A DNA stretch of 64,000 nt, from contig NZ_BAFN01000001.1 of NCBI RefSeq assembly GCF_000949635.1, positions 3,531,052-3,595,051 on the forward strand, given 5' to 3'. This DNA comes from Candidatus Brocadia sinica JPN1 (lineage in GTDB: Bacteria > Planctomycetota > Brocadiia > Brocadiales > Brocadiaceae). The position numbers were made by a program, and so were the translations under genes. The notes below the pieces were generated by a model. It made no database searches. It saw only the letters and a list, made by a program, of their open reading frames with translations, and was not told where the DNA came from. Shown piece by piece: positions 3,771 through 19,580 of the stretch (its first letter is position 1; each line of letters begins with the position of its first letter).

Positions 3771-3848
3771 CGGGGTGTAGCGCAGCTTGGCTAGCGCGCT
3801 TGAATGGGGTTCAAGAGGTCGTGGGTTCAAATCCCGCCACCCCGACCA
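3771..3848 (+). tRNA. tRNA-Pro (anticodon GGG)
   Basis: A 78-base cloverleaf reads out by hand. Acceptor CGGGGTG (3771-3777) pairs with CACCCCG (3838-3844); the D stem is GCGC/GCGC; the anticodon stem CTTGA/TCAAG holds loop ATGGGGT with anticodon GGG at 3806-3808; the T stem GTGGG/CCCGC closes loop TTCAAAT. Discriminator A3845 is followed by an encoded CCA. The C1-G72 pair is typical of bacterial tRNA-Pro. Its 3' part from base 3800 is also the attachment core of the integrative element, which restores an intact tRNA gene on insertion. Confidence 0.95.
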
Positions 3849-3864
3849 CTAAAATCAAGGGTTT
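3800..3864 (+). repeat. attL core, 65 bp
   Basis: Left copy of the attachment core. It begins in the anticodon stem of tRNA-Pro and runs 16 bases past the CCA end. It is identical to 19516-19580; the bases on either side differ (C3799 against T19515, C3865 against T19581). Its last base is also the last base of the integrase stop codon complement. Confidence 0.93.
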
Positions 3865-4916
3865 CAGGCATTTGCCACTTCTCGCTTTTCCTCAAGTGTA
3901 GTCAAATTGTAGTCAGCTTCTAAAATCTGAACTCCGTCTCTCAAGCTATCTGGACAATGATGACTGTATCGCTGAGTCATCCGTATGTCATGATGACCTA
4001 ATAGCTTTGAAATTTTATAAATATCAATTCCTTTTTGCGCTAACCGCGTTGCAAAGGTATGCCGCAGATCGTGGAAGTGAAAATCCCGTAGACCAGCCTT
4101 TTCTATTGCGATATTAAAAGCCCTTCTCAGATTATGACGGTCAATCTTGTTACCCACGCCACTGGAAAACACCAAATCATTTTTAATATTCCTTATCTTT
4201 GATTTTTCCGTCAGAATATCGAATGCCACCTGGTTCAAAGGAATCGTCCTTGGCTTTCCGCTCTTTGTTTCCTGGATGATTATCGTTCTTCGTAACAGGT
4301 TTACCCTATTCCATTGAAGGGAAAGCAGTTCGCCTTGACGTAATCCAGTATGCAAGTCGAAAATGATAATATTCCGAAGCCATGGAGGAGAAACATTAAG
4401 CAATCTTTTCTTCTCGTCATCGGCCAACCAACGATCTCTATCATTACCCTCTTTCTCTTTGGGAACTTTAGAAACAGGATTATCCTTAATCCATTCCCAC
4501 TCTTTGACTGCTAGGTTAAAAGCCTTTGAGAGCATGGCCAATTCCCTATTAACGGTGGCTGGTTTTGCCTCTTCACTTTTCCTTAACACCTTGTACTCAG
4601 AAATCATCTTGGGAGATATGGACGATAATTTTGATGTACCAAAGAAGGGGATTAAGTGTTTGAGAGATGCGGAATAACTTCGTTGCATACTGATCGACAC
4701 ACTTGGGGCGTGTTCCTTCATAAACTTTTCCATCATATCAGTGAAGGTCTTACTATTTCCGGTAAGCTTTTCAAAGTATTTTCCCTCAACAATTTCAGTT
4801 TTAATCTTTGCCTCTATTGCCTGAGCAAGCTTCTTATCCGCCGTTTCAAGGCTCCTTTGAATTTTCTTGCCTCCATACCTGATGCAAGTCCACCAAACAC
4901 CGCCACGTTTATACAT
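3864..4916 (-). CDS. int: Tyrosine-type site-specific integrase
   Basis: A 350-residue phage-type integrase. The order is an N-terminal arm-binding segment (about 1-60), a SAM-like core-binding domain (about 65-160) and a catalytic domain (about 165-340). Catalytic residues are all visible: R in HTGLRQGELL, the H-x-x-R box HDLRHTFATRLA, LLGHHDIRMT and the nucleophile Y in QRYSHH. The gene abuts attL, its stop codon touching the core, so it very probably catalyses integration at this tRNA. Two TGTAGTCA repeats, likely arm-type sites, lie inside its own 3' end. Confidence 0.95.
   Translation of the reverse strand: MYKRGGVWWTCIRYGGKKIQRSLETADKKLAQAIEAKIKTEIVEGKYFEKLTGNSKTFTDMMEKFMKEHAPSVSISMQRSYSASLKHLIPFFGTSKLSSISPKMISEYKVLRKSEEAKPATVNRELAMLSKAFNLAVKEWEWIKDNPVSKVPKEKEGNDRDRWLADDEKKRLLNVSPPWLRNIIIFDLHTGLRQGELLSLQWNRVNLLRRTIIIQETKSGKPRTIPLNQVAFDILTEKSKIRNIKNDLVFSSGVGNKIDRHNLRRAFNIAIEKAGLRDFHFHDLRHTFATRLAQKGIDIYKISKLLGHHDIRMTQRYSHHCPDSLRDGVQILEADYNLTTLEEKREVANA
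3897..3915 (+). promoter_or_regulatory. Candidate integrase arm-type sites, left
   Basis: Two direct copies of TGTAGTCA start 11 bases apart (3897 and 3908), 33 bases inside the attL core and within the int coding end. The same 19-base block occurs in the same orientation at 19359-19377 near the other end. Paired short repeats flanking a core are the expected form of integrase arm sites; the function is inferred. Confidence 0.55.
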
Positions 4917-4960
4917 TTCCTCCCCCTTTCCCGTGACTGATCGTGTCTGTATGACCGCTA

Positions 4961-5200
4961 TCAGGCATTATAATTGTTTTCGAGAATGTCGCCAACAATC
5001 TTATTGACCGTTTTATCACATTGTTGTGCATCGCGTTTATGGGCTGCCATTATTTGATCTATGTCCTGTAGATCAAAAAGGACACGTCCCCGAAGTTTGA
5101 TTGATGGAATCTTTCTTTGACTTGCCCAATCATAGAGCGTCTTAACCGGCAATGAGGTATATTCGGAAACTTCTTTGATATTTACGTATCGTTTTTCCAT
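4961..5200 (-). CDS. Excisionase-like helix-turn-helix protein
   Basis: A 79-residue protein of the excisionase/HTH_17 (MerR-like winged helix) group: VNIKEVSEYTSLPVKTLYDWASQRKIPSIKLRGRVLFDLQDID has the typical domain order, with recognition helix and the wing ending in VLFD. Such proteins bend DNA as recombination directionality factors or act as small repressors. It lies 45 bases upstream of int on the same strand, the position expected of an Xis. An SD-like stretch lies ahead of the ATG. A second HTH_17 protein is at 12804-13835, so which one drives excision is open. Confidence 0.75.
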   Translation of the reverse strand: MEKRYVNIKEVSEYTSLPVKTLYDWASQRKIPSIKLRGRVLFDLQDIDQIMAAHKRDAQQCDKTVNKIVGDILENNYNA

Positions 5201-5302
5201 AATGATTTTTTATTACCCAATTCACTACCCGGTCAGCATCTCGCAAACCCTTAATTTTTCTGGACTGATTTTTTCACTTGGGTAACAAAAGATTCACTTA
5301 TA

Positions 5303-5611
5303 TTACCCGGCATTTAAAGTACTCACGGTTTGCTTTTTATTTATCATTTCACGTCTGTGTTTTTTGATGATCTCACGTACCCAAAACGAGGTAACTCCAT
5401 ATTTCCTGGCAAGCTCTCCGTAATTACCACCCTTAAACTCTTCGATGATCTTCCGCTTTTTTACCCTGGCTAAGCAAACATCCAATTTAGGCAAATAGAA
5501 TTGTTCCCCGCCTAATTCTCTCCCAAGCTTTACGACGTTCTCAATACCTATTACCATGGCGATTTGTTGATAAGTGGGAGGCAGATCATCCAGACGGATT
5601 TCATTTTCCAT
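5303..5611 (-). CDS. Mor-family transcription activator
   Basis: A 102-residue protein resembling the Mor/C activators of Mu-like phages. Family features seen are LPPTYQQIAMVIGIENVVKLGRELGG, then LPKLD, KIIEEFKGGNYGELARKYGV and the terminal helix-turn-helix TSFWVREIIKK. Mor proteins dimerise through the N-terminal half and activate middle promoters by contacting RNA polymerase. It overlaps the end of the upstream gene by 11 bases, so the two are translationally coupled. A Mor protein in an element run by a tyrosine integrase shows mosaic ancestry. Confidence 0.72.
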   Translation of the reverse strand: MENEIRLDDLPPTYQQIAMVIGIENVVKLGRELGGEQFYLPKLDVCLARVKKRKIIEEFKGGNYGELARKYGVTSFWVREIIKKHRREMINKKQTVSTLNAG

Positions 5612-6089
5612 CAGTCTTTTCCTCCATTTTCAAATAAGGTTTCGTCTCTTTCACAGAGACGTACTTCAGGATATCTGCTTTTACCTTTTCTGGCGCTTCA
5701 ATCCCCAGGGCGTGGTCTGATTCCATGAACTTTTTAAAGTCAGGGGTGGCTTTATATTCCGACTTCTTTTCAAAGAACATCTCAAACAACGGTCCCAACG
5801 GAACTTTTATATCCTCGACCTCATCCTTAACGATATAGGATTCCCGGAACGTAACAACGGCCCGGGCCGTTATTCCGTCAAGTGTAACGGTTGTTGTTTC
5901 CTTCTGCCTGTTCCTGGCAATCTCAATGAGGCGTTCCTGAATGCTGTCAAGTTCTTCATCGAGGTCCTTGATTTTCCTTTTAAGAGATAATCCCCTCTGG
6001 AGAAGTTTTTCAATTTCTGCATCCTCGGCCAGTACAAGGTGTTTCTTCCCGCCGACCTGAACCTTTTTAACCTCTTTTACGCCCTTCAC
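5601..6089 (-). CDS. Hypothetical phage-type protein, coupled to Mor
   Basis: A 162-residue charged protein that I do not recognise. Residues about 25-62 (AEIEKLLQRGLSLKRKIKDLDEELDSIQERLIEI, in part) form a predicted coiled coil; the middle (TTVTLDGITARAVVTFRESY) looks like a small beta sheet; the rest is helical and lysine-rich. There is no signal peptide or membrane segment. Its 3' end overlaps the Mor-like gene by 11 bases, making it the first gene of a short regulatory operon. The size and position resemble early genes of Mu-like phages, but no function is claimed. Confidence 0.6.
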   Translation of the reverse strand: MKGVKEVKKVQVGGKKHLVLAEDAEIEKLLQRGLSLKRKIKDLDEELDSIQERLIEIARNRQKETTTVTLDGITARAVVTFRESYIVKDEVEDIKVPLGPLFEMFFEKKSEYKATPDFKKFMESDHALGIEAPEKVKADILKYVSVKETKPYLKMEEKTDGK

Positions 6090-6627
6090 TTTTACCTCCT
6101 ATCTTTCATAAACCACCGAAGATATGCCGTACTTTTTCCCACCTTTTTTACTCTTTTTTGGAATCAAACAGCCCGAAGTATCAAAAGTTTGTGTCCACTC
6201 CCCCTTGTGGCTCAAAACAGCCACTTGTTTGCCACGATGCGCATGCAACATTCACGCATGGCAATTTCTTGCATGTTAAAACTCTCAAAAGTTTTAACAT
6301 TTCCACCTTTGGGAAGTAGTCATAACATATTGTAAATAGATAACTAAGAGTAGATTCAAGAATTATGCTTATCATAAAATATACTTCTCACCGTCATTTT
6401 TTCAGGCAAGGTAAAACTGGCAGAAAACCCTTATAAATCAAGGGATTCAAGGTGTTTTGACCTTTATGTATAGGATATAATCTTACTATTATACGAAATC
6501 CCTTCAAAAACCCTGTATAATCAAGGCTTCCCAGCCTTGTTAAAACCTTTTCCCTGTTTTTAAAACTCTTCATACTTCCAGCCTGAAAAGCCTGCTATTT
6601 CAAGGCCTTCACGTTTTCCTTGCAAAA
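6090..6627. other. 538-base gap with hairpins
   Basis: No convincing gene was found on either strand. A perfect 11-base inverted repeat (6273-6283 and 6290-6300, loop CTCAAA) sits in the middle, and a second short hairpin CAAGGCT-TCCC-AGCCTTG lies near 6521-6538. Several variants of a CCTTTAAATCAAGG-like phrase recur at 6426-6450 and 6510-6540. The gap separates the sigma-factor gene from the Mor operon on the same strand, so terminators or element-specific promoters could lie here. Confidence 0.5.
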
Positions 6628-7476
6628 TCAACCAACATTTGATATTTTAATCCCGTGAGATATCGGTTGGGCTACAGCCCCTATAACCGATATCTGACGC
6701 CCCCTCCGCTGTGGGGAGGAGAGGTCCTTTACGGGAACGTTCAGGAAAGGGGAGGCCCACTCCGCCGAACTACCTGACCGTATCGGCTTGTGAGCCATTC
6801 CGATCGCTGTCCTTTCAATTGCCCACCGTAATTTCCTGAGCGCCTTTACCTCAATCTGCCTTACCCTTTCTTTTCCCAGGTTAATTCTCTGGCCTACTTC
6901 ATCCAGGGTAAGATCATGCCAGAATCTCAGAGTAATAACCATTCTTTCCCTGGCACTTAAGCGGTTCAGGAAATCGCATACCTGACTATAAAAAGCCGTC
7001 TCCTCACTTTGTGGATCCTCCGATATGAGGATATCCCCTTGCGTCATTTCTGATTCATTCCCGTAGATCAGTTCATCAAGGGATTCATACCCATACTGCT
7101 TATGGTCCTGAACGGCTTTTTTAACCCCTTGCACTATCGCATATCCAGCATAGGTCAGAAATTTGAACCCCTTATCAGGATCAAAGGTCTCTGCAGCCTT
7201 AATAAGCCCCAGGCATCCTTCAGAAATCATATCCATCAAGGGAAGTCCAGGAGACCAGTATTGAAAAACCACCGTAATGACAAATCTCAGGTTCGACCCA
7301 ACAAGGTGATTCCTTGACGCCTCATCTCCTATCCATGATCTCCTGGCAACACTCATTTCCTCTTCCTGAGTAAGCATCTGCATTCCCCCCACATCCTTTA
7401 AAAACATCCGTAACAGCCCTCGTTCCCCGCTTCCCCTGTTTACAGAGGAATCAAGATCAAAATTTTCTTCTTCCAT
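6628..7476 (-). CDS. Sigma-70 family RNA polymerase sigma factor
   Basis: A 282-residue sigma factor. Region 1.2 (about 20-52, FLKDVGGMQMLTQEEEMSVARR), region 2 (55-125, with NLRFVITVVFQYWSPGLPLMDMISEGCLGLIKAAETFDPDKGFKF in part, then LTYAGYAIVQGV) and region 4 (about 170-225, RLSARERMVITLRFWHDLTLDEVG with helix-turn-helix KERVRQIEVKALRKLR) are clear. Region 3 is absent or tiny. The last ~55 residues are not sigma-like and include a peptide encoded by a palindromic repeat (6726-6750). It could redirect host polymerase to element promoters. A sigma factor on such an element is uncommon. Confidence 0.92.
   Translation of the reverse strand: MEEENFDLDSSVNRGSGERGLLRMFLKDVGGMQMLTQEEEMSVARRSWIGDEASRNHLVGSNLRFVITVVFQYWSPGLPLMDMISEGCLGLIKAAETFDPDKGFKFLTYAGYAIVQGVKKAVQDHKQYGYESLDELIYGNESEMTQGDILISEDPQSEETAFYSQVCDFLNRLSARERMVITLRFWHDLTLDEVGQRINLGKERVRQIEVKALRKLRWAIERTAIGMAHKPIRSGSSAEWASPFLNVPVKDLSSPQRRGRQISVIGAVAQPISHGIKISNVG
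6726..6750. repeat. Palindromic repeat inside the sigma-factor 3' end
   Basis: An imperfect 25-base palindrome centred on AACGTT (CCTTTACGG...AGGAAAGG) with further purine/pyrimidine inverted pairs on either side (6701-6725). It is read in frame as the peptide SPFLNVPVKDLSSPQRRGR in the tail of the sigma factor. Confidence 0.6.
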
Positions 7477-7568
7477 CCATCCTCCTTTCGTGATATAAGA
7501 TGCCCTTATCGCATAAGGAAAGTGGCATTTCCTCCCCTAAAGCCATGTACTTATCAGGGTGCGTGGCT

Positions 7569-8846
7569 TTATCTATTTAATGGGTTATGCATACCCGGAT
7601 GATTGTCATAGCTTTGTGCTGAATGGACGTAAATCATCGTGGTATTTATATCCTGGTGTCCTGCTAGTTTCTGAATATCTTGTATTGGCACACCCTCCTG
7701 GGCAAGTACCGTAAAGGCCGTATGCCGTAAGGCATGCGCGCTCAATACCTCACCGTCTCTTTCAATCTTGGCCTTTTTAAGGTACCGCTTCACGATATTC
7801 TCCACAGACTTAACGGAAAGCGCCTCTGGTAGCCTATCCCTTCTTATCACTAGTTTGCGATCCACGCGGTCATAGATGAAGGGTAAGAAGATAGGCAGTT
7901 CCCCGGTTATCTTTATTCCGTACCCCTTCACAATACCAATCCAGGTATCAAACGACTGCAATGCCTTCCCGTTCAGGATAATGGCCGTCTTTGGTCTGTT
8001 CTGAAATCTTCCCTTCCTGTCCGTAATCCAGACCTTTTGTTGACCTTTCACCCTGTCGTGTTCAAGGTGCTTATGCCTGAGGCCAGCTATCTCGTTTGCC
8101 CTGAGACCATACACGAGCATGATTACGAGGATTGCATAATCACGCCTCCCGATCTCCGTCTTCCGGTCCGGCTGGCCCAATAGCCGCTGTGCCTCCGATA
8201 CAGAAAGGACGGTATAGTAACCCTTATCCTTCTTTGGAAAGATAAGGGACAGTTCCTTAAAAAGGATAGGATTCCTGAACTTCCTATTTTCCCGTTCAAT
8301 GTACTTAAAGAATCGATTGAGGGATATAAACTTATTCCAAATCGTTGTATCCCGGTAGTTTTGCCCTCTGAGGTAGTCCCTGTATGCCAGGAGGTCTATC
8401 TTTGAGATATCACAGAGATCCTTATTTACCCAGGTAAAGAACAGTTTGATCAGGTTCTCGTAACTCTTCCGGGTATTCGTGGTATTCTGGATAGCCAGGA
8501 ATCCGCCAAGATATCGTGTAAAATCTTCGCTCTTGATGCCGGTATGGGTCTTAAACTCCGTTAAGGTGTCAATAGGGTTCTGGAATCCCTTAACCTTCTT
8601 TTCCAGGAACTTAAAGAAGCCGTTGAGTATGGAAAACTTCCTCTTAGCAGTCTTTGACGAATGCTCATGGGAAAGCCTTTCCTGGTAGGAGTGGAGAGTC
8701 TCTTTACTGATATTTGAGATCTCACAATTCTTGAAGTCAAAGAATTGCTGTATCTCTGACCGGTAAACCCTCTGACTGCTACCGTTCACCTTTTTCAAAT
8801 ATTGGTTGAAAATCTTTTGGCCTGAATCAGTATCAAGAAATGACAT
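7569..8846 (-). CDS. Tyrosine recombinase with two core-binding domains
   Basis: A 425-residue recombinase when started at the ATG at 8846, one base after the stop of the GemA-like gene; a longer open frame to 8912 overlaps that gene and is less likely. Two successive SAM-like segments (about 1-90 and 105-195) precede the catalytic domain. Catalytic blocks are intact: LVYGLRANEIAGL, SAHALRHTAFTVLAQEG, LAGHQDINTTM and nucleophile Y in MIYVHS. The end ...DNHPGMHNPLNR is short. It resembles Xer/integron-type enzymes more than the att-proximal integrase; resolving multimers or moving a cassette is possible. Confidence 0.88.
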   Translation of the reverse strand: MSFLDTDSGQKIFNQYLKKVNGSSQRVYRSEIQQFFDFKNCEISNISKETLHSYQERLSHEHSSKTAKRKFSILNGFFKFLEKKVKGFQNPIDTLTEFKTHTGIKSEDFTRYLGGFLAIQNTTNTRKSYENLIKLFFTWVNKDLCDISKIDLLAYRDYLRGQNYRDTTIWNKFISLNRFFKYIERENRKFRNPILFKELSLIFPKKDKGYYTVLSVSEAQRLLGQPDRKTEIGRRDYAILVIMLVYGLRANEIAGLRHKHLEHDRVKGQQKVWITDRKGRFQNRPKTAIILNGKALQSFDTWIGIVKGYGIKITGELPIFLPFIYDRVDRKLVIRRDRLPEALSVKSVENIVKRYLKKAKIERDGEVLSAHALRHTAFTVLAQEGVPIQDIQKLAGHQDINTTMIYVHSAQSYDNHPGMHNPLNR

Positions 8847-8847
8847 G

Positions 8848-9312
8848 TTAAACCTCTGTAACCAGTTTCTTTTTAGCACGTTTGAGGACTGTAATAACAA
8901 CCCCAGCCTCATTACCGCCTAATTTATCAAGGATATCCTTGCTAAATCTCTTACGGATAAAGTTCGTAAGATGTTCATCATCCCATCCGGCCTCTTTTTT
9001 AAGATTTTCTATAAAAGATAGTTGACCGGGTGTTGCCAGGGGTACAAAACGGCCTATAATCTTCTTATCTTTTTTCGATGTCAGGATAGTCCCCCTTAAC
9101 AAAGGGGGATTCAGGGGGTTGTTTTCAAAAACAGATCTCTTACCTTCCATAACATCAATAAGCTTTATCCCCTGGCGCTTGGTAAGCTCCCTGGTAGAGT
9201 CCTGGCCAGATATCCACCTGACGAGATCCCGGAGCTGTTCCTCCGCCATCCCTATCTCTTGGGCCTTTGTCCAAATCTTCGCCTTTTGTGCCTTCGTTAT
9301 CCCTTTTGCCAT
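8848..9312 (-). CDS. GemA-like (Mu gp16, DUF1018) regulatory protein
   Basis: A 154-residue protein with the pattern of phage GemA/gp16 proteins: ITKAQKAKIWTKAQEIGM, LRDLVRWISGQDSTRELTKRQ and the C-terminal TPGQLSFIENLKKEAGW...FIRKRFSKD. In Mu this protein affects host gyrase and replication functions; here the role is inferred by family only. Residues 64-77 (NNPLNPPLLRGTIL) are encoded by a dispersed palindromic element at 9091-9120 and interrupt the two halves. It sits between the recombinase and the iteron array, co-oriented with the replication gene. Confidence 0.62.
   Translation of the reverse strand: MAKGITKAQKAKIWTKAQEIGMAEEQLRDLVRWISGQDSTRELTKRQGIKLIDVMEGKRSVFENNPLNPPLLRGTILTSKKDKKIIGRFVPLATPGQLSFIENLKKEAGWDDEHLTNFIRKRFSKDILDKLGGNEAGVVITVLKRAKKKLVTEV
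9091..9120. repeat. Palindromic element inside the GemA-like gene
   Basis: Hairpin arms CCCCCTT (9091-9097) and AAGGGGG (9102-9108) followed by TTCAGGGGGTT. Related copies are at 14633-14690, 12229-12250 and 53768-53806. Here it is translated in frame. Confidence 0.7.
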
Positions 9313-9362
9313 AAAAAATAACTTAGAAATGTAAAATGCTCCTATAGGAAAAATAACAAAAA

Positions 9363-9548
9363 GGTGTAGTAGGTGTAGTAACCCTTATAAATACTGGTGT
9401 TTTTGGTTAAAAAAGGTGTAGTTACAAGGTGTAGTTGACTACACCTTACTACACCTTGACTACACCTCACTACACCACAACTACACCTTGAATAATCTGG
9501 AATCCCTTTATTGGTGCGGGTTACTACACCTACTACACCTACTACACC
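9363..9548. repeat. Iteron-like array, candidate replication origin
   Basis: Twelve exact copies of GGTGTAGT lie in 186 bases: four direct (9363, 9372, 9415, 9428) and eight inverted as ACTACACC (9438, 9448, 9459, 9469, 9480, 9523, 9532, 9541). The five from 9438 to 9480 alternate 10 and 11 bases apart, a 10.5-base helical phase. The outer groups are 9 bases apart, and a 22-base block (9363-9384) is inverted at 9518-9539. The array lies directly downstream of the replication-protein gene. It looks like an initiator-binding origin; a regulatory role is the alternative. Confidence 0.7.
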
Positions 9549-9568
9549 ACACTTTTGAAAAGTATACG

Positions 9569-12205
9569 TCATATATTTAAAAACTCCTTAACCACCTGCC
9601 AGGGAATAATGGTAAACCTTCTTTGCTTAATTATCCCGTCTTCTATCCTGGCATTTCTTGAACAAGTAAACTTTCCACCCTCACACTTAATCCAACCTTT
9701 TTCAGCCCAGGATTTAAGAATGGCCCTTTCTGAGAATTTCTCATTTCTGAGAACCTCAGCAAGCTTATGAGGGTAAATCCCTATGTATTCCCCCTCTTTC
9801 CACTGGCCGTAAGACTCAAAATCGGTATCCTTGAAGTATTGCTCATTTCCGCTTGCCCAGGATAAGACGTGTTGCATTGCCCTGGTACCAATATCTACAT
9901 CATTCAAAGACTCACTGATTACGTTGTCAAACACCCGGTCAATAAATTCCCTGGCTGCCACAGGATCGCCAATCCCCAAAATTTCATAAACAAGGTCTGC
10001 CGCCAGCTTGATCACCGCAAAGTAATGACTGTACCTATCTCCTACCTCTGAATTTGCCTCCAGAGATAACGCCCGTTGGTACATCTTGTAATCGGCCTTT
10101 AGCCTGTTCATCTTATCCACGTTGTCCCAAATGGACAGGATACCCTCTACAAACTTGGCCCCGGCGTGCCCGTAATTTTCCCTTAACCCCGTCTTCAGCT
10201 CATTGATGAAATCACCTCCTATGTTGGGGAAGGGTGAACCATAAAGCTCAATCGTACGCGCCCGGGCGCCGGCAAAGGTGGTGCATTCGATTAAAGGACG
10301 TTCGCCTGTGGAAAAACAGACTGTATGCCACGTTGGATTATGCCTGATGCCAGCGGTAGCACCGCGTCCGCGACCAACGCCGTTGGCAATCTGATAAAGC
10401 ATACTCGACATGGTACGGTCATCTACCATTTGCGAATCGTCCGGAAAGATGGGAATATCACAAAAAAAGTTAGCAATCCTTTCTAAAAATACCTTCGTGG
10501 AATCCCAGCCAAAGACCAGTCCTCCCGCCTCCTTGTGTGGATTTCCCCATACGCTGGCAGCCAGTTCCAAAACGGTTGTCTTGCCAACGGATGTATTGCC
10601 CCAAAAGTCGATAATAAAATTCGGCGCTTTGAGCATCCTGAGAAGTGGCGCGGAAAACGAGGCATAAAAGGCAAATGCAGCATAGGGATATTTCAAGGCA
10701 GGTTCTATACATTCCCTCCATTTTACATACGTACCCTCTGGCTTAACTGCCTTGACGAACCTCTCGTAGCCGGGTTCCGGCGAAAACTCAACGGATACCT
10801 CTTTATTGCCCTGGCCAGCTTTCTTACCTATCATCTTTTCAAGGATAAACACCCGTTTGTTCTCAACAGACTTAAAACCAAAGCCTTTGGAAACGAAGGT
10901 CTTTGGGATAAGCTGCATATTGAAGTGCTCAAAGGCTGCCAGGTATTCAATCATCTTTCCGCAGTTCCGGCTATTTACCGGTAAACCGTGACTTGCAAGC
11001 TCAATAATCTTTTTCGCATCGGAGATCAACAGTTTGGAGATCCAAATCTTCTTCCACTTATGGTCCCGCTTAAAGGCGATCTCAACGTCTTCAAAACCTG
11101 AATCAACGTCTATTGCCCGGCCGGTAATGAAAAGTGGGGTATAAAAGGCAGGCTTTTTGATTGAATCATCTCTGAAGTAGATTATCTGATTTACTCGATC
11201 CTCTTTAACCTCAAACCCCTCCGGTTCTATAAGCTTGATACCGTCAATCTCTTTTATTTCAAAAGCGATCTCTTTCGCACTATCAATAAGCCTTTGAAAG
11301 TCTTCCTTTGTCTTCCCCAGGGTAACAAAGAAGTCCGTTACGTCCTTCTTGTCTTTGGAATCCATGAAGGACGGCCATTGAATGACCTTCACGCTCCTGG
11401 CAGTACCTTTAATGAATTCGGCTACCTTCAAGGCTCCCTGCCTTCCCGGTTCGTCATTGTCATATGCAAGGATCACATTGAGATTGGTAAAGAGTGAGTT
11501 CCATTCCCGCTTCCAGGTGTTAGCCCCGCCGGTCCCAGAGACAGCCGGGAAACCCATCTGGTTGAGAAGTAATGCTTTGAATTCGCCCTCGCTAACGAGG
11601 ATAAAAGGGAGATCCTCTTTGATCACATTGGAAGGATACAAAAGTACCTTTCCACTTTTAAGCTGGTTGCCCTTATGTTCCTTAAAAGTCCACTTACCCG
11701 GCTCAATTTCCATCGGGATAACGTAATGTTCATTCTGATAGCCTATGAGGTACTTTTCTATGGTCTCTCTGAACAAACCGTACTTATCCTGGAAGGTCTT
11801 TAATGCCGTCTCGTTCTTCAATAATTGGTTATGGATGAGCTTCACCTGATCAAGGGTGAGATGTGAAGGCTTCTTGGTAGTTTTGGATTTTGGATTTCGT
11901 CCTGAACTTGATTCAGGATCAGATTTTATTCCCTCTTCCTCCTTAATTTTTTCAAGGGCGCCTTTCTTATCCAGCCCATACCGCAATTGAATAAACTTGA
12001 CCACGCCTCCTTGCTCACCGCAACCAAAGCATTTAAAAACACCCTTTTCCAGGTTTACCGATAAGGAAGGATCCTTGTCGTTGTGGAAAGGGCAAAGACA
12101 TTGAACCTCCGTCTTGCCATTCGGGTCAAACCCCGGTATGTGCCTTGTGTAAAAACTTTTATAGTCAATCTTGCTCAGTACGTCTGTAGTCTTATCCATT
12201 TTCAA
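9569..12205 (-). CDS. Primase-helicase replication protein (CHC2, Toprim, DUF927)
   Basis: An 878-residue multidomain protein. Residues 36-62 hold a CHC2 zinc finger (C36, H41, C59, C62), as in DnaG. A Toprim-like domain follows (LVSEGEFKALLLNQMGFPAV ... ILAYDNDEPGRQGA). The C-terminal half is a DUF927/superfamily-3-like ATPase with Walker A GNTSVGKTT and Walker B-like DIPIFPDDSQ. Together they prime and unwind DNA at the element's origin. Residues 94-109 (KSDPESSSGRNPKSKT) come from an in-frame palindromic repeat at 11900-11918. Start could be 12205 or the next ATG at 12199. It is the main evidence that the element can replicate itself. Confidence 0.88.
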   Translation of the reverse strand: MKMDKTTDVLSKIDYKSFYTRHIPGFDPNGKTEVQCLCPFHNDKDPSLSVNLEKGVFKCFGCGEQGGVVKFIQLRYGLDKKGALEKIKEEEGIKSDPESSSGRNPKSKTTKKPSHLTLDQVKLIHNQLLKNETALKTFQDKYGLFRETIEKYLIGYQNEHYVIPMEIEPGKWTFKEHKGNQLKSGKVLLYPSNVIKEDLPFILVSEGEFKALLLNQMGFPAVSGTGGANTWKREWNSLFTNLNVILAYDNDEPGRQGALKVAEFIKGTARSVKVIQWPSFMDSKDKKDVTDFFVTLGKTKEDFQRLIDSAKEIAFEIKEIDGIKLIEPEGFEVKEDRVNQIIYFRDDSIKKPAFYTPLFITGRAIDVDSGFEDVEIAFKRDHKWKKIWISKLLISDAKKIIELASHGLPVNSRNCGKMIEYLAAFEHFNMQLIPKTFVSKGFGFKSVENKRVFILEKMIGKKAGQGNKEVSVEFSPEPGYERFVKAVKPEGTYVKWRECIEPALKYPYAAFAFYASFSAPLLRMLKAPNFIIDFWGNTSVGKTTVLELAASVWGNPHKEAGGLVFGWDSTKVFLERIANFFCDIPIFPDDSQMVDDRTMSSMLYQIANGVGRGRGATAGIRHNPTWHTVCFSTGERPLIECTTFAGARARTIELYGSPFPNIGGDFINELKTGLRENYGHAGAKFVEGILSIWDNVDKMNRLKADYKMYQRALSLEANSEVGDRYSHYFAVIKLAADLVYEILGIGDPVAAREFIDRVFDNVISESLNDVDIGTRAMQHVLSWASGNEQYFKDTDFESYGQWKEGEYIGIYPHKLAEVLRNEKFSERAILKSWAEKGWIKCEGGKFTCSRNARIEDGIIKQRRFTIIPWQVVKEFLNI
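11900..11918. repeat. Palindromic element inside the primase-helicase gene
   Basis: Arms TCCTGAA (11900-11906) and TTCAGGA (11912-11918) around CTTGA. It is translated in frame in the linker between zinc finger and Toprim domain. This TCCTGAA-type palindrome is a common dispersed repeat type in bacterial genomes. Confidence 0.65.
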
Positions 12206-12625
12206 CCTCTGTTTAAAAAACTTGTTTTCCCTCTTGAGAGGGGTTAGGGGTGTGTTTCCTTCTCAGCTTGCCATATGGCATAGCAGGATATAGAGGACAC
12301 GTTTCAACCTCACAATCCCTTCGACCATCAACATAATCACACATACAGTCCTTACGCCTTTGCCCTGATCATTTGCTTATACGACAGGGTGTTTCTCTTT
12401 TTCACGCCTTGTACTTCCTTTAAAATCAAAAACCAGGTCTCAAAACACGCTTAATAAGCATATTTTTAACATGCCGATTTGCTTCTGCGACCAAAACCAC
12501 GCACCTTAAAACAAAAAAGCCGATTAACGGGAATTACTTCCCATCAATCGGCTGGCTTGCTATTTTTAAAATGTGGCTAGCTAATAGCTGGCTTGCCTAT
12601 TCTTACCTGTCCCGGACAGATAAGT
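12206..12625. other. Gap with palindromic repeat and hairpin
   Basis: No gene is supported. At 12229-12242 is a CCCTCT/AGAGGG palindrome followed by a GGTTAGGGGTGTG phrase, an intergenic copy of the repeat family seen inside genes. At 12518-12553 AGCCGATT pairs with AATCGGCT, with an inner GGG/CCC extension; read downstream on the minus strand the neighbouring small gene ends at 12626, so this hairpin may terminate it. Confidence 0.5.
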
Positions 12626-12799
12626 TTATTTCTGCATCATGAATTTATTACTTTTTGTCTTTTTAATTTGGTAATTTCCGACAACCATACCCAAATCATC
12701 TATTATCCTGACAGGGATAGGAAATTGCTCTTTCATGGATATCTTAATTTCCCGCTCTTTTGGCGATTCGTTGAATTCGAGAGACGACATATTTCCCAT
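12626..12799 (-). CDS. Small hypothetical protein, coupled to the HTH gene
   Basis: A 57-residue ORF starting MGNMSSLEF and ending NKFMMQK. A strong SD (GGAGG) lies six to eight bases upstream of the ATG and overlaps the stop of the HTH gene, so it would be translated by coupling. The middle, KEQFPIPVRIIDDLGMVVGN, looks like a short beta-rich fold. I do not recognise it. Support comes from the SD and the position. Confidence 0.55.
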   Translation of the reverse strand: MGNMSSLEFNESPKEREIKISMKEQFPIPVRIIDDLGMVVGNYQIKKTKSNKFMMQK

Positions 12800-12803
12800 G
12801 ATT

Positions 12804-13835
12804 TTAACCTCCTTTTTTTGGTTGTTTGAGTAACGATTTCAAGGCCTTTACTTCGGCCTCTATTTGTTTGATTCTTTTAATGACACCTTCTCTTGCCTCA
12901 TCCCCAGTAAAAATCTTTTCCCTTAATCCCGTCTCGATTTGTTCCGGGGTAAGTTCATCTATTGCTTTGTCCATCACAAAAAAGCCACATACTGGAAACG
13001 AATAAAAATTCATAGTAAAATAACAGAACCCATGAACATATAAAGCGAAGAAAGTTTCACTATCGAAGTATCTATTCGCGTAGCTAACAAGGTCTTCCTG
13101 GTGGCTGTCACGACGGGAAATAGGTGCATTCTTGTTCTCTTTCTGCCTATATTCCAGCTTCCCATACTCTAGATAAACAACAATCCTTGTAAACTCAGAC
13201 AAGATTTCATTTACAAGACTCTCTTTAATGAAACCAATATAAGCCGCTTTCAAGTTTTCTTCGGCATCAGGGTCAGCTATACAGAGGTTCTCTCTCACAT
13301 TTTCAATCAGCCGTTTCTTTAGTTGTCGAAGATAGCTAATATCCAAATCCAGTTTACCTTTGAAGACTTCCTGTATTGTTAAATAGTTTGTTATGGCGCC
13401 GATTTCAGAACCTTCATAAACAGGCGTGTTCTTTTTCATAAGGCGTGGATATACTAATTCTGCGTCTAAGATCTCCTTGGCAGCTTCTAAAACCTCTCCA
13501 TCAAATTCAAAAGGGAGCCTTTCTTCACGCCAGTAATCCGTTGTAGTGCTTCTCACTTCCTCTAAAAGCACGCTCTCTTTGGTTATTTGGTTGATCCCTG
13601 TAGGGTTATCTGATACAAGATAATACCGGTCACCCTTTTTAAGATAGCGCCTTTCTTCCTTTCTTTGCTCCACTATCCAGTTATCAATTTCAGCCTTTTT
13701 AAATCTGACTGCTTTCAGACCGATCTTGTGGAAAGGGATTTGTTTATTGTGGATTTTGTTGTAGATGGTCTGCTTCTCAAAGCCAAGATATTGAGCAACC
13801 TCGTCAACCGTCATATATTTATCTTCTGCAGCCAT
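12804..13835 (-). CDS. HTH_17 DNA-binding protein with long C-terminal domain
   Basis: A 343-residue protein. The first ~58 residues are an excisionase-type helix-turn-helix: MTVDEVAQYLGFEKQTIYNKIHNKQIPFHKIGLKAVRFKKAEIDNWI (in part). The remaining ~280 residues are unknown, helical, and end in a coiled-coil KRIKQIEAEVKALKSLLKQ. Small excisionases lack such a domain, so it is probably a regulator or replication accessory factor. It precedes a coupled 57-residue gene and the replication gene on the same strand. Its upstream region holds repeated AGTTACTTTATA boxes that could be its own operators. Confidence 0.72.
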   Translation of the reverse strand: MAAEDKYMTVDEVAQYLGFEKQTIYNKIHNKQIPFHKIGLKAVRFKKAEIDNWIVEQRKEERRYLKKGDRYYLVSDNPTGINQITKESVLLEEVRSTTTDYWREERLPFEFDGEVLEAAKEILDAELVYPRLMKKNTPVYEGSEIGAITNYLTIQEVFKGKLDLDISYLRQLKKRLIENVRENLCIADPDAEENLKAAYIGFIKESLVNEILSEFTRIVVYLEYGKLEYRQKENKNAPISRRDSHQEDLVSYANRYFDSETFFALYVHGFCYFTMNFYSFPVCGFFVMDKAIDELTPEQIETGLREKIFTGDEAREGVIKRIKQIEAEVKALKSLLKQPKKGG

Positions 13836-13862
13836 GTGACCTCCTACTATTTGTTTACTTTA

Positions 13863-13894
13863 AGTTACTTTATAATAACTATAGTTACTTTATA
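13863..13894 (-). promoter_or_regulatory. Repeated operator-like boxes
   Basis: AGTTACTTTATA occurs at 13863-13874 and 13883-13894, exactly 20 bases (two helical turns) apart, with a related TTTACTTTA just before. They lie 28-60 bases upstream of the HTH_17 gene start in an AT-rich promoter-like stretch. An autoregulatory operator is a reasonable guess. Confidence 0.45.
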
Positions 13895-13955
13895 TAAACA
13901 CCGATGTCAAGAAAAAAATTAAAATTTTCTTTATATCCCTTTTACCCGCCTTCCT

Positions 13956-14225
13956 TCACCTTTCGAATTTAATTATCCGATGTTGTTGGTTTTTTTTAAA
14001 TTCACCAGGCGCATTAATCACATTCCTAATTTCATAGCATGCCTCGATGGTTTTAATGATCGCCTTCCGGCTGCCCTCGTTTTCTCCGCGCAGAATAGCA
14101 ACTACCATATTGATAAGTTCCTGTTCCATCGGTGGAAGTCCAGCATATTTAACAATTTCCGATGATTCGGAAACTGTTTCAGTCACCAGTTTTATATTTG
14201 GCGGTACCCAATTTTTTTTAGACAT
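13956..14225 (-). CDS. Small hypothetical protein
   Basis: An 89-residue ORF beginning MSKKNWVPPNIKL. The centre (LPPMEQELINMVVAILRGENEGSRKAIIKTIEACYEI, in part) forms two amphipathic helices with a glutamate- and lysine-rich C-terminus. There is no membrane segment and no recognised motif. An SD-like GGAGGGTAAT lies just upstream of the ATG on the minus strand, which supports it as a real gene. Position between two regulatory/recombinase genes suggests an element-specific accessory factor. Confidence 0.5.
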   Translation of the reverse strand: MSKKNWVPPNIKLVTETVSESSEIVKYAGLPPMEQELINMVVAILRGENEGSRKAIIKTIEACYEIRNVINAPGEFKKNQQHRIIKFER

Positions 14226-14336
14226 GACTATTACCCTCCATTATCCTTTCTTTGCCAAAAAAACCAAATAGGGCACGGGCGCCGTGCCCCTACAATTTAT
14301 TTTCCTTTGCGCCCTCTGCGTCTCTGCGGTGAATAA

Positions 14337-15014
14337 TCATAATGCGAACTGCAACCGCGCAATGGCATCCATCTTCTTTTCATCTGATGTATGCAAATAT
14401 TTCTCAGTCGTCCTTATGTGGCTATGTCCCAAAAGCTCCTGCACCGTCTTCAGGTCAACCCCCTTATCCAGGAGCGTGGTAGCAAAGGTGTGTCTCGTGG
14501 TATGTGGAGTAATCCTCTTGGCAATCAAGGCATCCTTCCTCACCCGCCGTAAAAGACAATCCACCGCCTTATGCGTAAGCGGTCGCACCTCACAATTCCC
14601 ATGCTCCCCAAGGGTATAAAATAAATACTTTTCCCCTCTATCAAGAGGGGTAAGGGGTGTGTTATCCCCCTTATCAAAGGGGGCAAGGGGGTTGTTTTCC
14701 TCTGCGTTCTCTGCGGTGAATCTTTGCTTCATCGCCTTTTGATACTCCAGCACAGCCTCCATCACATCCCTGTTCAGTGCAACACGCCGGTATTTATCAC
14801 CCTTACCCATCACATCAACCACCGGTTGATTCCGGTACGTGGTAACGTCTGCAACCCTGAGATTGCATACCTCCGCCTTTCTGAGTCCCGTGGAGAACAT
14901 CAGGAGCAAAAGGGCATAATCCCGCTTGCCCTTCAGCGTCCTCCTGTCCGGTGCCCTGAGGATCACGCTAATTTCATCCTCCGTTAGAAATTCAGATACC
15001 CTTTTTGATTTCAT
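14337..15014 (-). CDS. Minimal tyrosine recombinase (catalytic domain only)
   Basis: A 225-residue recombinase that begins at the catalytic domain; the SAM-like core-binding domain is missing. Active-site blocks are intact: TGLRKAEVCNL (R45), HTTRHTFATTLLDKG, LLGHSHIRTTEKY with the nucleophile Y. Residues 99-128 are a foreign peptide (ENNPLAPFDKGDN and TPLTPLDRGEK) encoded by two tandem palindromic repeats in frame. A promoter and operator palindrome lie directly upstream, shared with a divergent RHH gene. It may act with a second protein for core binding, or be a remnant kept open. Confidence 0.85.
   Translation of the reverse strand: MKSKRVSEFLTEDEISVILRAPDRRTLKGKRDYALLLLMFSTGLRKAEVCNLRVADVTTYRNQPVVDVMGKGDKYRRVALNRDVMEAVLEYQKAMKQRFTAENAEENNPLAPFDKGDNTPLTPLDRGEKYLFYTLGEHGNCEVRPLTHKAVDCLLRRVRKDALIAKRITPHTTRHTFATTLLDKGVDLKTVQELLGHSHIRTTEKYLHTSDEKKMDAIARLQFAL
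14633..14721. repeat. Three dispersed repeats inside the minimal recombinase gene
   Basis: Two hairpins sit side by side: CCCCTCT/AGAGGGG (14633-14639, 14644-14650) and CCCCCTT/AAGGGGG (14666-14672, 14677-14683). A CTCTGCG...GCGGTGAAT phrase follows at 14699-14721 and recurs at 14313-14334 just past the gene end. All are translated without breaking the frame. Confidence 0.75.
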
Positions 15015-16001: not shown

Positions 16002-16250
16002 ATGCGTACAACCTTAAAAAAGAAGAAAGACCTTATCAAGGTCAAACAGTTTGTAACCAATAGCGAAGGTCAAAAAGTAGCAGCCATAATCGAAATGGAA
16101 GAGCTGAGCAGGATCGAGGGATTGTTAAAGGTCATTCCACCTTCAGAAGCATGGCTTTACCAAAACAAGGAAGCAGTGGAAAGCGTCCAGAAAGGTTTAA
16201 AAGAAGCGTCAGAAGGCAAGATATCAAAACTCAATCTTAATAAACTTTAG
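16002..16250 (+). CDS. Antitoxin of the first toxin-antitoxin pair
   Basis: An 82-residue protein that directly precedes a RelE-type toxin gene by 9 bases. The N-terminal part (KVKQFVTNSEGQKVAAIIEMEELSRIEGLL) resembles Phd/YefM or prevent-host-death antitoxins, with a helical C-terminus (NKEAVESVQKGLKEASEGKI) expected to wrap the toxin. Antitoxin identity rests on size and position more than on motif. Confidence 0.62.
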   Translation: MRTTLKKKKDLIKVKQFVTNSEGQKVAAIIEMEELSRIEGLLKVIPPSEAWLYQNKEAVESVQKGLKEASEGKISKLNLNKL

Positions 16251-16259
16251 GATAATACC

Positions 16260-16553
16260 TTGTTTGAGATATTTCTTACCAACCACGCAAGGGAACAATT
16301 AGACCAGCTCAAAACCGACAAGGGGCTGTTTAAAAGATACAAAGCGGTAAAAAAGGCCATTCAATTTTTATCCCAAAATCCAAGACACCCAGGGTTACAA
16401 ACGCATGAATTTACTACGCTGAAAGGCCCAAAAGGTGAGAAAGTTTTTGAAGCCTATGCCGAACAATCAACCCCGGCAGCTTATAGAATATTCTGGTATT
16501 ATGGCCCAGACAAAAATCAAATTACCATTATCGCCATAACCCCACACCGGTAA
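16260..16553 (+). CDS. RelE/ParE-superfamily toxin, first pair
   Basis: A 97-residue basic protein starting at a TTG codon (16260) in tight linkage to its antitoxin. The RelE/ParE fold pattern is visible: FEIFLTNHAREQLDQL, an alpha hairpin with KRYKAVKKAIQFLSQNPRHPGLQTHE and the C-terminal strands AYRIFWYYGPDKNQITIIAITPH. The R/Y in YRIFW and terminal HR are usual. It should act on translating mRNA or on gyrase; which cannot be told. It supports element maintenance by post-segregational killing. Confidence 0.7.
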   Translation: MFEIFLTNHAREQLDQLKTDKGLFKRYKAVKKAIQFLSQNPRHPGLQTHEFTTLKGPKGEKVFEAYAEQSTPAAYRIFWYYGPDKNQITIIAITPHR

Positions 16554-17427: not shown

Positions 17428-19329
17428 TTAACGATTACCCCTCAATTGCGCTGCAAAGGCGCGGCTACGGTCTACGCTATCGCCAACAATCTTCTGTATT
17501 ACCGGTGAGTGCTTTTGTAAAAAACGTTCACCATCCTGACCATCCACAAAGGACATATTCATAGAGATGGATTGCTGAACGATGACCTGGCCACCTGCAG
17601 ATCCCGCACCTTGGGCAGACATATTACCAATAGGTGGTGGTGTAAACCATCCGCCTGCCTGTGTAGTGCCAGCGGTACCGCCGATACCCATTGAACGCGC
17701 ACCGCCAATACCAAATGCGCTGCCAATGCCGGTAAACATTTGGGACATGAGCCATTCGGCGGTCATTCGATTAACAGCATCGATAAATGCATCTGAAAAA
17801 TCACCGATAAAATCCTTCAGATGTTTGCCAATGTTTTTTGTATCGGTTTCGATACTATGTTCAAACTTCGATAAAGCACTTGCTCCGCCTGATGCGAAGT
17901 CCTCCATCATCCCTTTAGCCCCTTTGGCCCAAGTGAATCCTTCCCGCTCTAATTCCGAATAAAAAACCTTAATCCCGCCAACAAAATCGTTGGTTCTCAA
18001 TATTCTCTCCTCATCCAGTTCCCTGAGACGTGCGTAGAATGCTTCCCAGTCAAGCATTACGTCACCCGTGATGGCAATTTCTTCATTACGTTGCTTTTCA
18101 AGAAGATCTCTACGATAATCATAGTAACGGGCGGAATCGAATTTGAGGGCTTCGAACATGTCTGCATAGACTTCTTGTTTCCGTTTTGCCGCTTCCTCTT
18201 CCAGCTTCATCGCTTCAGCCGCAAGCCTGCCTTCCTCGCGGAATGCCTCACCAACAGACTTTTCAAATTCTGCCTGATCCTTCAACCATTGTTTTTCATT
18301 GAAGATAATTGCGGGCTCGGTTTTCCTGGCTTTTGTAATACCTTGAGTAAGTTCGCCAGGTAATCCAAACGCACCAAAAACCGGGTTAGGTTGTAAACGA
18401 ATAGATTGTAAATTCATTACTTCTGTTTTTATTCCAGCAAGTTTATCCGTATATTCTTCTGCAAGGTCTACAAGTTTTTTGAACCATTCCCATGATGTAG
18501 CAAGTGGTGATTTTCCAATTCGATTCATAAGCCCCCATGGATCAATTAATTTAATCCATGAATTTTCAGGGATTATTCCTTTTTTTATGACATCAAAGAA
18601 CTCATTAAGATTTGGTATTACAATATTACCAACTACATACCCAAGTTCTTTAAAATTTTCTTTCGTGATGGCAATATTATCATTGAATTGCTTTGCCTGA
18701 TTAATCTCATCTTCAGAAAAAATAGGCTGTTTGTTTTTAATCTCATCGATATTTTCCGAAAGTTCCTGAAACATGGGTAAAATCGCCCTACTACCTCGGC
18801 CAAAGACCTTTTCTGCTAAATCGATTTTTTGAAAACCATCTACCATATTTGCAAATTTTCTCGAAGTATCAATAAAAAGATCCCCAGTATCCCGCAATCT
18901 ACCTTTCGTATCATATAGCTCTATTCCAAGTGCATGAAATATATCTTGTGAGTCACCCACACCATTAGTCGCATCTGCAAGCCTTTGAGAAAATTGGAAA
19001 AGACTGAGCGATAATTCATTTAAATGTACGCCGGATGTTAGTGCAACTTGTTTGAATGCCTGGAGCATATCAGTTCCGACTGAGGTTTGAAAGCTCAATC
19101 GTTTCAATTCCTCCGCAGCATTAGCTGTATCAAAGATAAAGAAATCTATGAATTTTTTAGCACTATAAATGGCGCCGGCAAAGCCAAGCCAATGGGATTT
19201 GATACGAGATACCAGACTGCCGGTTTCAAGCTCTAGTTTTTTGAATGACTCTCCAACATTCTGAATGCCGGTAATTGCGTCTTTATTGTCTGTGGTGATG
19301 ATTAATTTTACTTCGTTTTGCTTTGCCAT
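17428..19329 (-). CDS. Phage tail tape-measure protein
   Basis: A 633-residue protein of the lambda H/TP901-like tape-measure kind. The N-terminal ~100 residues carry the tape-measure domain (IITTDNKDAITGIQNVGESFKKL ... LGFAGAIYSAKKFIDF). Long helices with alternating charge follow, with a coiled-coil stretch (about 355-420, EFEKSVGEAFREEGRLAAEAMKLEEEAAKRKQE in part). A glycine-rich, weakly hydrophobic zone (GIGSAFGIGGARSMGIGG) lies near 545-570. Such proteins set siphophage tail length. No tail, capsid or portal gene accompanies it here, and it lies against attR, so it is an orphan. Confidence 0.85.
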   Translation of the reverse strand: MAKQNEVKLIITTDNKDAITGIQNVGESFKKLELETGSLVSRIKSHWLGFAGAIYSAKKFIDFFIFDTANAAEELKRLSFQTSVGTDMLQAFKQVALTSGVHLNELSLSLFQFSQRLADATNGVGDSQDIFHALGIELYDTKGRLRDTGDLFIDTSRKFANMVDGFQKIDLAEKVFGRGSRAILPMFQELSENIDEIKNKQPIFSEDEINQAKQFNDNIAITKENFKELGYVVGNIVIPNLNEFFDVIKKGIIPENSWIKLIDPWGLMNRIGKSPLATSWEWFKKLVDLAEEYTDKLAGIKTEVMNLQSIRLQPNPVFGAFGLPGELTQGITKARKTEPAIIFNEKQWLKDQAEFEKSVGEAFREEGRLAAEAMKLEEEAAKRKQEVYADMFEALKFDSARYYDYRRDLLEKQRNEEIAITGDVMLDWEAFYARLRELDEERILRTNDFVGGIKVFYSELEREGFTWAKGAKGMMEDFASGGASALSKFEHSIETDTKNIGKHLKDFIGDFSDAFIDAVNRMTAEWLMSQMFTGIGSAFGIGGARSMGIGGTAGTTQAGGWFTPPPIGNMSAQGAGSAGGQVIVQQSISMNMSFVDGQDGERFLQKHSPVIQKIVGDSVDRSRAFAAQLRGNR

Positions 19330-19515: not shown

Positions 19516-19580
19516 TTGAATGGGGTTCAAGAGGTCGTGGGTTCAAATCCCGCCACCCCGACCACTAAAATCAAGGGTTT
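19516..19580 (+). repeat. attR core, 65 bp, with partial tRNA
   Basis: Right copy of the attachment core, identical to 3800-3864. It carries the tRNA-Pro 3' half through CCA; the 5' half is missing, so it is not a functional tRNA gene. Confidence 0.93.

Follow-up and report, generated by a model that had tools for sequence, protein, structure and literature searches.

A phased iteron array beside rep as the probable replication origin of a 15.7 kb mobile element in the anammox bacterium Candidatus Brocadia sinica

The iteron array at positions 9363-9548 of the window, a 64,000-nucleotide stretch of the Candidatus Brocadia sinica JPN1 genome, is very probably the replication origin of the integrated 15.7 kb element in which it lies, with each GGTGTAGT copy predicted to be bound by the HTH_56 tail of the element's own Rep. 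The best reading is an origin of the SaPI/SCC type, unexpected in this host and bound by the C-terminal domain of Rep. A preliminary description of this DNA had suggested an origin or a handcuffing site beside the primase-helicase gene, and the comparisons reported here support the origin well: the position and spacing of the array are conserved, its letters switch in a coordinated manner and co-vary with the HTH_56 domain, arrays stand in the same place after other DUF927 genes, and the element is integrated between att sites. The features are as follows.

3800-3864, + strand: att repeat copy 1, the tRNA-Pro 3' end (exact, 65 bp)
3864-4916, - strand: tyrosine integrase of the element, adjoining tRNA-Pro
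8848-9312, - strand: gemA-like gene (PF06252), 3' of the array
9313-9362, no strand: second of two candidate melting regions, A+T-rich, flanking the array and containing conserved TTTCCTATAG
9363-9548, no strand: iteron array, putative replication origin, 12 exact GGTGTAGT sites in 186 bp
9363, 9372, 9415 and 9428, + strand: GGTGTAGT copies
9438, 9448, 9459, 9469, 9480, 9523, 9532 and 9541, - strand: GGTGTAGT copies
9363-9379, + strand: gemA-proximal outer pair, 9 bp spacing
9380-9414, no strand: gemA-side gap of 35 bp, 74% A+T, with a conserved TATTTATAAGGGTT block, candidate melting region
9415-9487, no strand: central cluster, with alternating 10/11 bp spacing over five iterons, followed by an inverted pair at 13 bp
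9488-9522, no strand: rep-side gap of 35 bp (43 bp start to start), 60% A+T
9523-9548, - strand: rep-proximal outer group, three iterons with 9 bp spacing (9-9 also in related loci L038, L042 and L055)
9569-12205, - strand: rep, 878 aa, CHC2 Zn-ribbon and Toprim primase, DUF927 helicase and HTH_56 winged helix (Pfam)
9572-9895, - strand: part of rep encoding the HTH_56 winged helix (residues 771-878), proposed to read the iterons
19516-19580, + strand: att repeat copy 2 (exact, 65 bp)

Our count confirmed the twelve exact copies in 186 bases that had been described at first, and the array is the densest 7-mer or 8-mer cluster in the window. GGTGTAGT occurs 13 times in the 64 kb, just once outside the array, against 0.88 expected and a maximum of 6 in 100 shuffles. 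Within the 400 bp 3' of rep one 7-mer is found 12 times, the highest count being 4 in both the 628 other counting windows and the shuffled sequences (n = 300), and paired GGTGTAGT copies are absent from the rest of the 4.08 Mb genome. The five inverted copies of the central group start 10, 11, 10, and 11 bp apart, in keeping with the 10.5 bases per turn proposed earlier, but in the outer groups the spacing is 9 bp, so the helical phasing holds for the central group only. The outer groups had also been called mirror images; the 22-base inverted block is indeed exact (9363-9384 versus 9518-9539), but the copy numbers differ, with two + copies on the gemA side and three - copies on the rep side. 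The intergenic gap gave no consensus match to a promoter or an intrinsic terminator, and a tRNA was the only match to known RNA families.

The array fills the gap between rep and gemA. The helicase domain of Rep matches PF06048 (DUF927, E=3e-43) and its C-terminal domain PF18662 (HTH_56, "Cch helix turn helix"). Two relatives have solved structures, 8tch (a pathogenicity-island protein) and 5dgk (SCCmec Cch). The element is inserted in tRNA-Pro, and the uninterrupted insertion site is found in sister genome G009 (96% over the joined flanks) and also in G001 and G004. Phage-inducible chromosomal islands (PICIs) are about 15 kb long and have an att site, an integrase, a replication module of their own, packaging-interference genes, and a helper phage. 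Of these traits the comparison covered size, integrase, att, and rep, which this element has. A gene for a phage tail tape-measure protein also lies inside it (17428-19329, near attR), so this may be a prophage in reduced form or a satellite.

The gene set at 3864-15014 (integrase, Mor, a 162-aa protein, a sigma factor, a second tyrosine recombinase, gemA, rep, and a third recombinase) is largely common to Jettenia, Kuenenia, and Nitrospinia loci, a mobile family across two phyla. The sigma-70-type factor (6628-7476; regions 1.2, 2, and 4) is conserved in related loci. The protein encoded at 5601-6089 is 93% identical to its counterpart in Brocadia MAG_8 while Rep is only 70% identical, which suggests that these elements exchange parts as mosaics. 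Two adjacent small genes (16002-16553) resemble an antitoxin/RelE-type toxin pair by eye and had no PHROG match.

Full or partial Rep homologues were compared in K. hertensis (L038), another planctomycete (L039), Jettenia ecosi (L040), a Nitrospinia (L041), Brocadia MAG_8 (L042), and G417 (L055/L056); scans of viral contigs found no further relatives. As in B. sinica, the array lies directly 3' of rep in L038, L040, L042, and L055. The iteron is GGTGTAGT in L038, a decayed GGTGTAGT in L039, GTGGTAGT in L040, nnTGTGAG in L042, and AGTAGTAA in L055. The Nitrospinia locus has no array 3' of rep and instead carries eleven AGTAGTAA copies at about L041:174-370, ∼5.6 kb upstream of rep. The outcome that the preliminary description had set against its own proposal, homologous elements that keep the primase gene and lack the array, was not observed, since the array is present in four relatives, decayed in a fifth, and 5.6 kb off in the Nitrospinia sixth. 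The layouts, written in the rep sense with > for a site, < for an inverted site, and numbers for start-to-start distances, compare as follows.

B. sinica: >9>9>43>11>10>11>10>10<13<43<9<
L038: >9>9>43>11>10>19>45<9<
L042: >9>9>44>11>10>11>10>8<13<33<8<
L055: >9>9>43>11>10>10>10>10>10<12<10<32<9<
L040: >10>10>10<13<43<10<
L041: >9>53>12> ... <54<9<9<

All 12 sites of B. sinica correspond one to one with those of L042, where the central-cluster spacings 11-10-11-10 and 13 recur, and the letters have changed at every site. The counterpart of the gap at 9488-9522 measures 43-44 bp in L038, L042, and L055 and 53 in L041, and the long gaps overall take values of 32-33, 43-44, and 53-54, steps of about one helical turn, although the helical-phase statistics treat near-identical gaps as independent and are indicative only. 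The rotational setting appears to be kept while the length varies, which is what would be needed for a multi-subunit complex that is wrapped or looped.

The Rep proteins themselves point to the domain that reads the iterons. Over residues 504-770, B. sinica Rep is 90% identical to that of Jettenia and 82% to that of K. hertensis, whereas over residues 771-878 the order is reversed (62% and 82%, respectively). At the sites where B. sinica Rep agrees with only one of these two proteins, the K. hertensis:Jettenia counts were 27:5 inside HTH_56 and 49:117 outside (Fisher p=7.6e-9), and the best 100-residue window in this triplet test was residues 771-870. Iteron sharing correlated with HTH_56 identity once core identity was removed (partial r=0.72, reached in 4/420 relabellings of seven related, not phylogenetically independent, loci); it showed no positive correlation with core identity once HTH_56 was removed, in the same seven loci. 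Among the parts compared, the iteron is tracked by the HTH_56 domain only, a pattern that could reflect either faster divergence or recombination of the domain, which look alike here. Neither the presence nor the divergence of GemA, TyrRec2, Mor, and HTH_17 follows the iteron, and all four were rejected as its reader on that ground. The HTH_17 protein, put forward earlier as a possible binder, also had no tblastn homologue in the examined stretches of L038 and L040, both of which have clear arrays.

Structure prediction was too weak for full-length Rep (mean pLDDT, 39), and a model of the C-terminal 189 residues reached a pLDDT of 73, mostly 75-93 over a winged helix whose fold matches Cch (5dgk, the best match) and the DNA-bound pCW3 oriT accessory protein (5vfx). 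Residue 832, in the recognition helix, and residues 842-845, at the wing base, are among the positions that the three Reps with GGTGTAGT share and at which L040 and L042 both differ from them. Residue 832 is Ser with GGTGTAGT, Ala with GTGGTAGT or nnTGTGAG, and Gly with AGTAGTAA. From the strong co-variation, the C-terminal domain of Rep is predicted to recognize the iterons. We give even chances to the broader proposal that this is a natural specificity code, in which HTH_56 and a dozen iterons change in concert without altering the three-dimensional layout of the origin, leaving related elements mutually blind and so compatible, with residue 832 as one letter of the code. The Nitrospinia element also encodes a 132-aa stand-alone HTH_56 protein without a helicase, between rep and gemA (L041:8729-9127), which could compete with Rep for the iterons.

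In the model that we infer, which covers binding, helicase loading, the choice of the A+T-rich stretch to be melted, and replication itself, the winged-helix tail would bind each GGTGTAGT iteron, and the phased central cluster, together with the two outer groups, which face it at a distance of 43 bp or about four turns, would seat several Rep subunits on the same side of the helix. Such an arrangement would load the DUF927 ring helicase, which would open adjacent A+T-rich DNA, and the fused CHC2/Toprim domain would then prime synthesis. The candidates for the opened DNA are 9380-9414 (TATTTATAAGGGTT) and 9313-9362 (TTTCCTATAG), the latter retained in L038 and L039, whose next gene is not gemA.

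The array lies 50 bp upstream of gemA and is also followed by gemA in L040, L042, and L055, as would be expected if it were mainly an operator through which Rep, HTH_17, Mor, or another protein of the element controls the gemA operon, replication starting elsewhere. We consider this unlikely. In L038 and L039 the gene after the array is a different one, and in L041 array and gemA lie far apart; the array thus stays with the element despite a changed neighbor or even a relocation. A search for sigma-70-type promoters, the only type considered, found no match in 9200-9700, and the iteron is tracked by the HTH_56 domain of Rep rather than by HTH_17, GemA, Mor, or TyrRec2. The array may also regulate gemA in addition to serving as an origin.

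Iteron arrays can act in copy-number and incompatibility control in iteron plasmids, and the symmetry of the present array would suit a site at which two arrays are handcuffed by Rep, with the true start elsewhere in the element. This we regard as very unlikely, because the array is the densest repeat cluster of the window and the stretches examined of related loci with a clear array hold no second comparable cluster; moreover, origins of the SaPI/SCC type sit directly after the helicase gene (PMC7581432). Initiator handcuffing, raised in the preliminary description, found no support, and a copy-number role could coexist with origin function. That the array is an accessory site for excision or integration by a tyrosine recombinase is extremely improbable, despite the three such genes inside the element, given that 5.5 and 10 kb separate the array from the att repeats and that TyrRec2 neither follows the iteron nor has a homologue in the examined L039 stretch, which keeps a decayed array.

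The placement assigned here to the origin recurs after other DUF927 genes. We counted the commonest 7-mer in the 400 bp after the stop codon at 22 loci with such genes. In 18 of the 22 there was a cluster whose count ≤3/300 shuffles reached and no other window of the locus did (with one tie, L065). These 18 comprise five of the anammox group and 13/13 phage, plasmid, or satellite records. The SaPI-like PT1028 is one of the 13, and two others (phage records L060 and L061) are probably near-duplicates, their layouts being identical. The exceptions are L039 (decayed), L041 (moved), and L047 and L048, two distant planctomycete DUF927/HTH_56 genes with no significant cluster in the 400 bp downstream. 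Several non-anammox arrays have pairs of sites spaced 8-9 bp, which lie some 43-56 bp from a cluster and on either side of an 83-118-bp gap; the anammox layout has the same 9-bp pairs and 43-bp distance but one central cluster, with the outer groups pointing inward. Pfam found HTH_56 in the phage, clostridial plasmid, and Geobacillus plasmid proteins tested, below the cut-off in two Streptomyces proteins. Strong arrays with 8-9-bp pairs and 83-118-bp gaps, none marked in the annotation tables, were seen in Faecalibacterium phage FP_Epona (L049:6740-7066), Thermoanaerobacterium phage THSA-485A (L050:6479-6843), a Geobacillus plasmid (L051:5266-5720), and, 3' of the DUF927 gene, two Streptomyces plasmids (L063 and L064).

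These results would bring anammox planctomycetes and Nitrospinia into the range of the SaPI/SCC-type origin, and they provide a natural series in which the geometry of an origin is fixed and its recognition sequence changes, so that what is read would be separable from how the helicase is loaded. They also suggest a simple rule, to search the 400 bp after a DUF927 gene for the origins of many phages, plasmids, and satellites. To our knowledge there are no routine genetic tools for anammox bacteria, for which this element may offer a replicon.

Phage P4 alpha is a primase and helicase that also binds its origin, all within a single polypeptide, and reads short iterons, an arrangement like the one proposed here, but the helicase of the B. 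sinica Rep is DUF927 and the Pfam search gave no P4 alpha family match. Three traits of self-loading initiators of the SaPI/SCC type (a DUF927, MCM-like helicase domain, a C-terminal winged helix, and an iteron array directly downstream) are present here, and two more, recognition of the iterons by the C-terminal domain and replication of the element from this origin, are predicted. FP_Epona and THSA-485A also carry CHC2, DUF927, and HTH_56 in one chain with an array directly downstream; they differ from B. sinica in sequence (about 25% identity), in their iterons (AGGTGAAAC and GGTAACCGA), and in having half-arrays around gaps of about 105 bp.

In SaPIs, the C-terminal domain of Rep reads an iteron origin directly 3' of its gene, and the primases are separate and of the AEP type (PMC7581432). 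The SaPIbov1 type resembles B. sinica in its DUF927 helicase, the iterons directly downstream, and the C-terminal reader (here predicted), and differs in having a separate AEP-type primase in place of the fused CHC2/Toprim. SaPI-like PT1028 has nine AGTTCCC copies 3' of the gene with 9-bp pairs and 43-bp distances, as in B. sinica; its iteron letters differ, HTH_56 is undetected by Pfam in its protein, and its two half-arrays surround a ∼97-bp gap, in contrast to the central cluster and inward-pointing outer groups found here. SCCmec Cch, after which HTH_56 is named, gave the best fold match to the C-terminal model (5dgk). In Cch2, the C-terminal domain alone binds direct repeats after its gene (PMC7581432), but the helicase is of a different family and there are three AAGTG repeats, compared with 12 phased iterons and a fused primase in B. 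sinica. The kind of origin proposed here is already known, and what is new is the single-cluster layout and the natural switching of the iteron.
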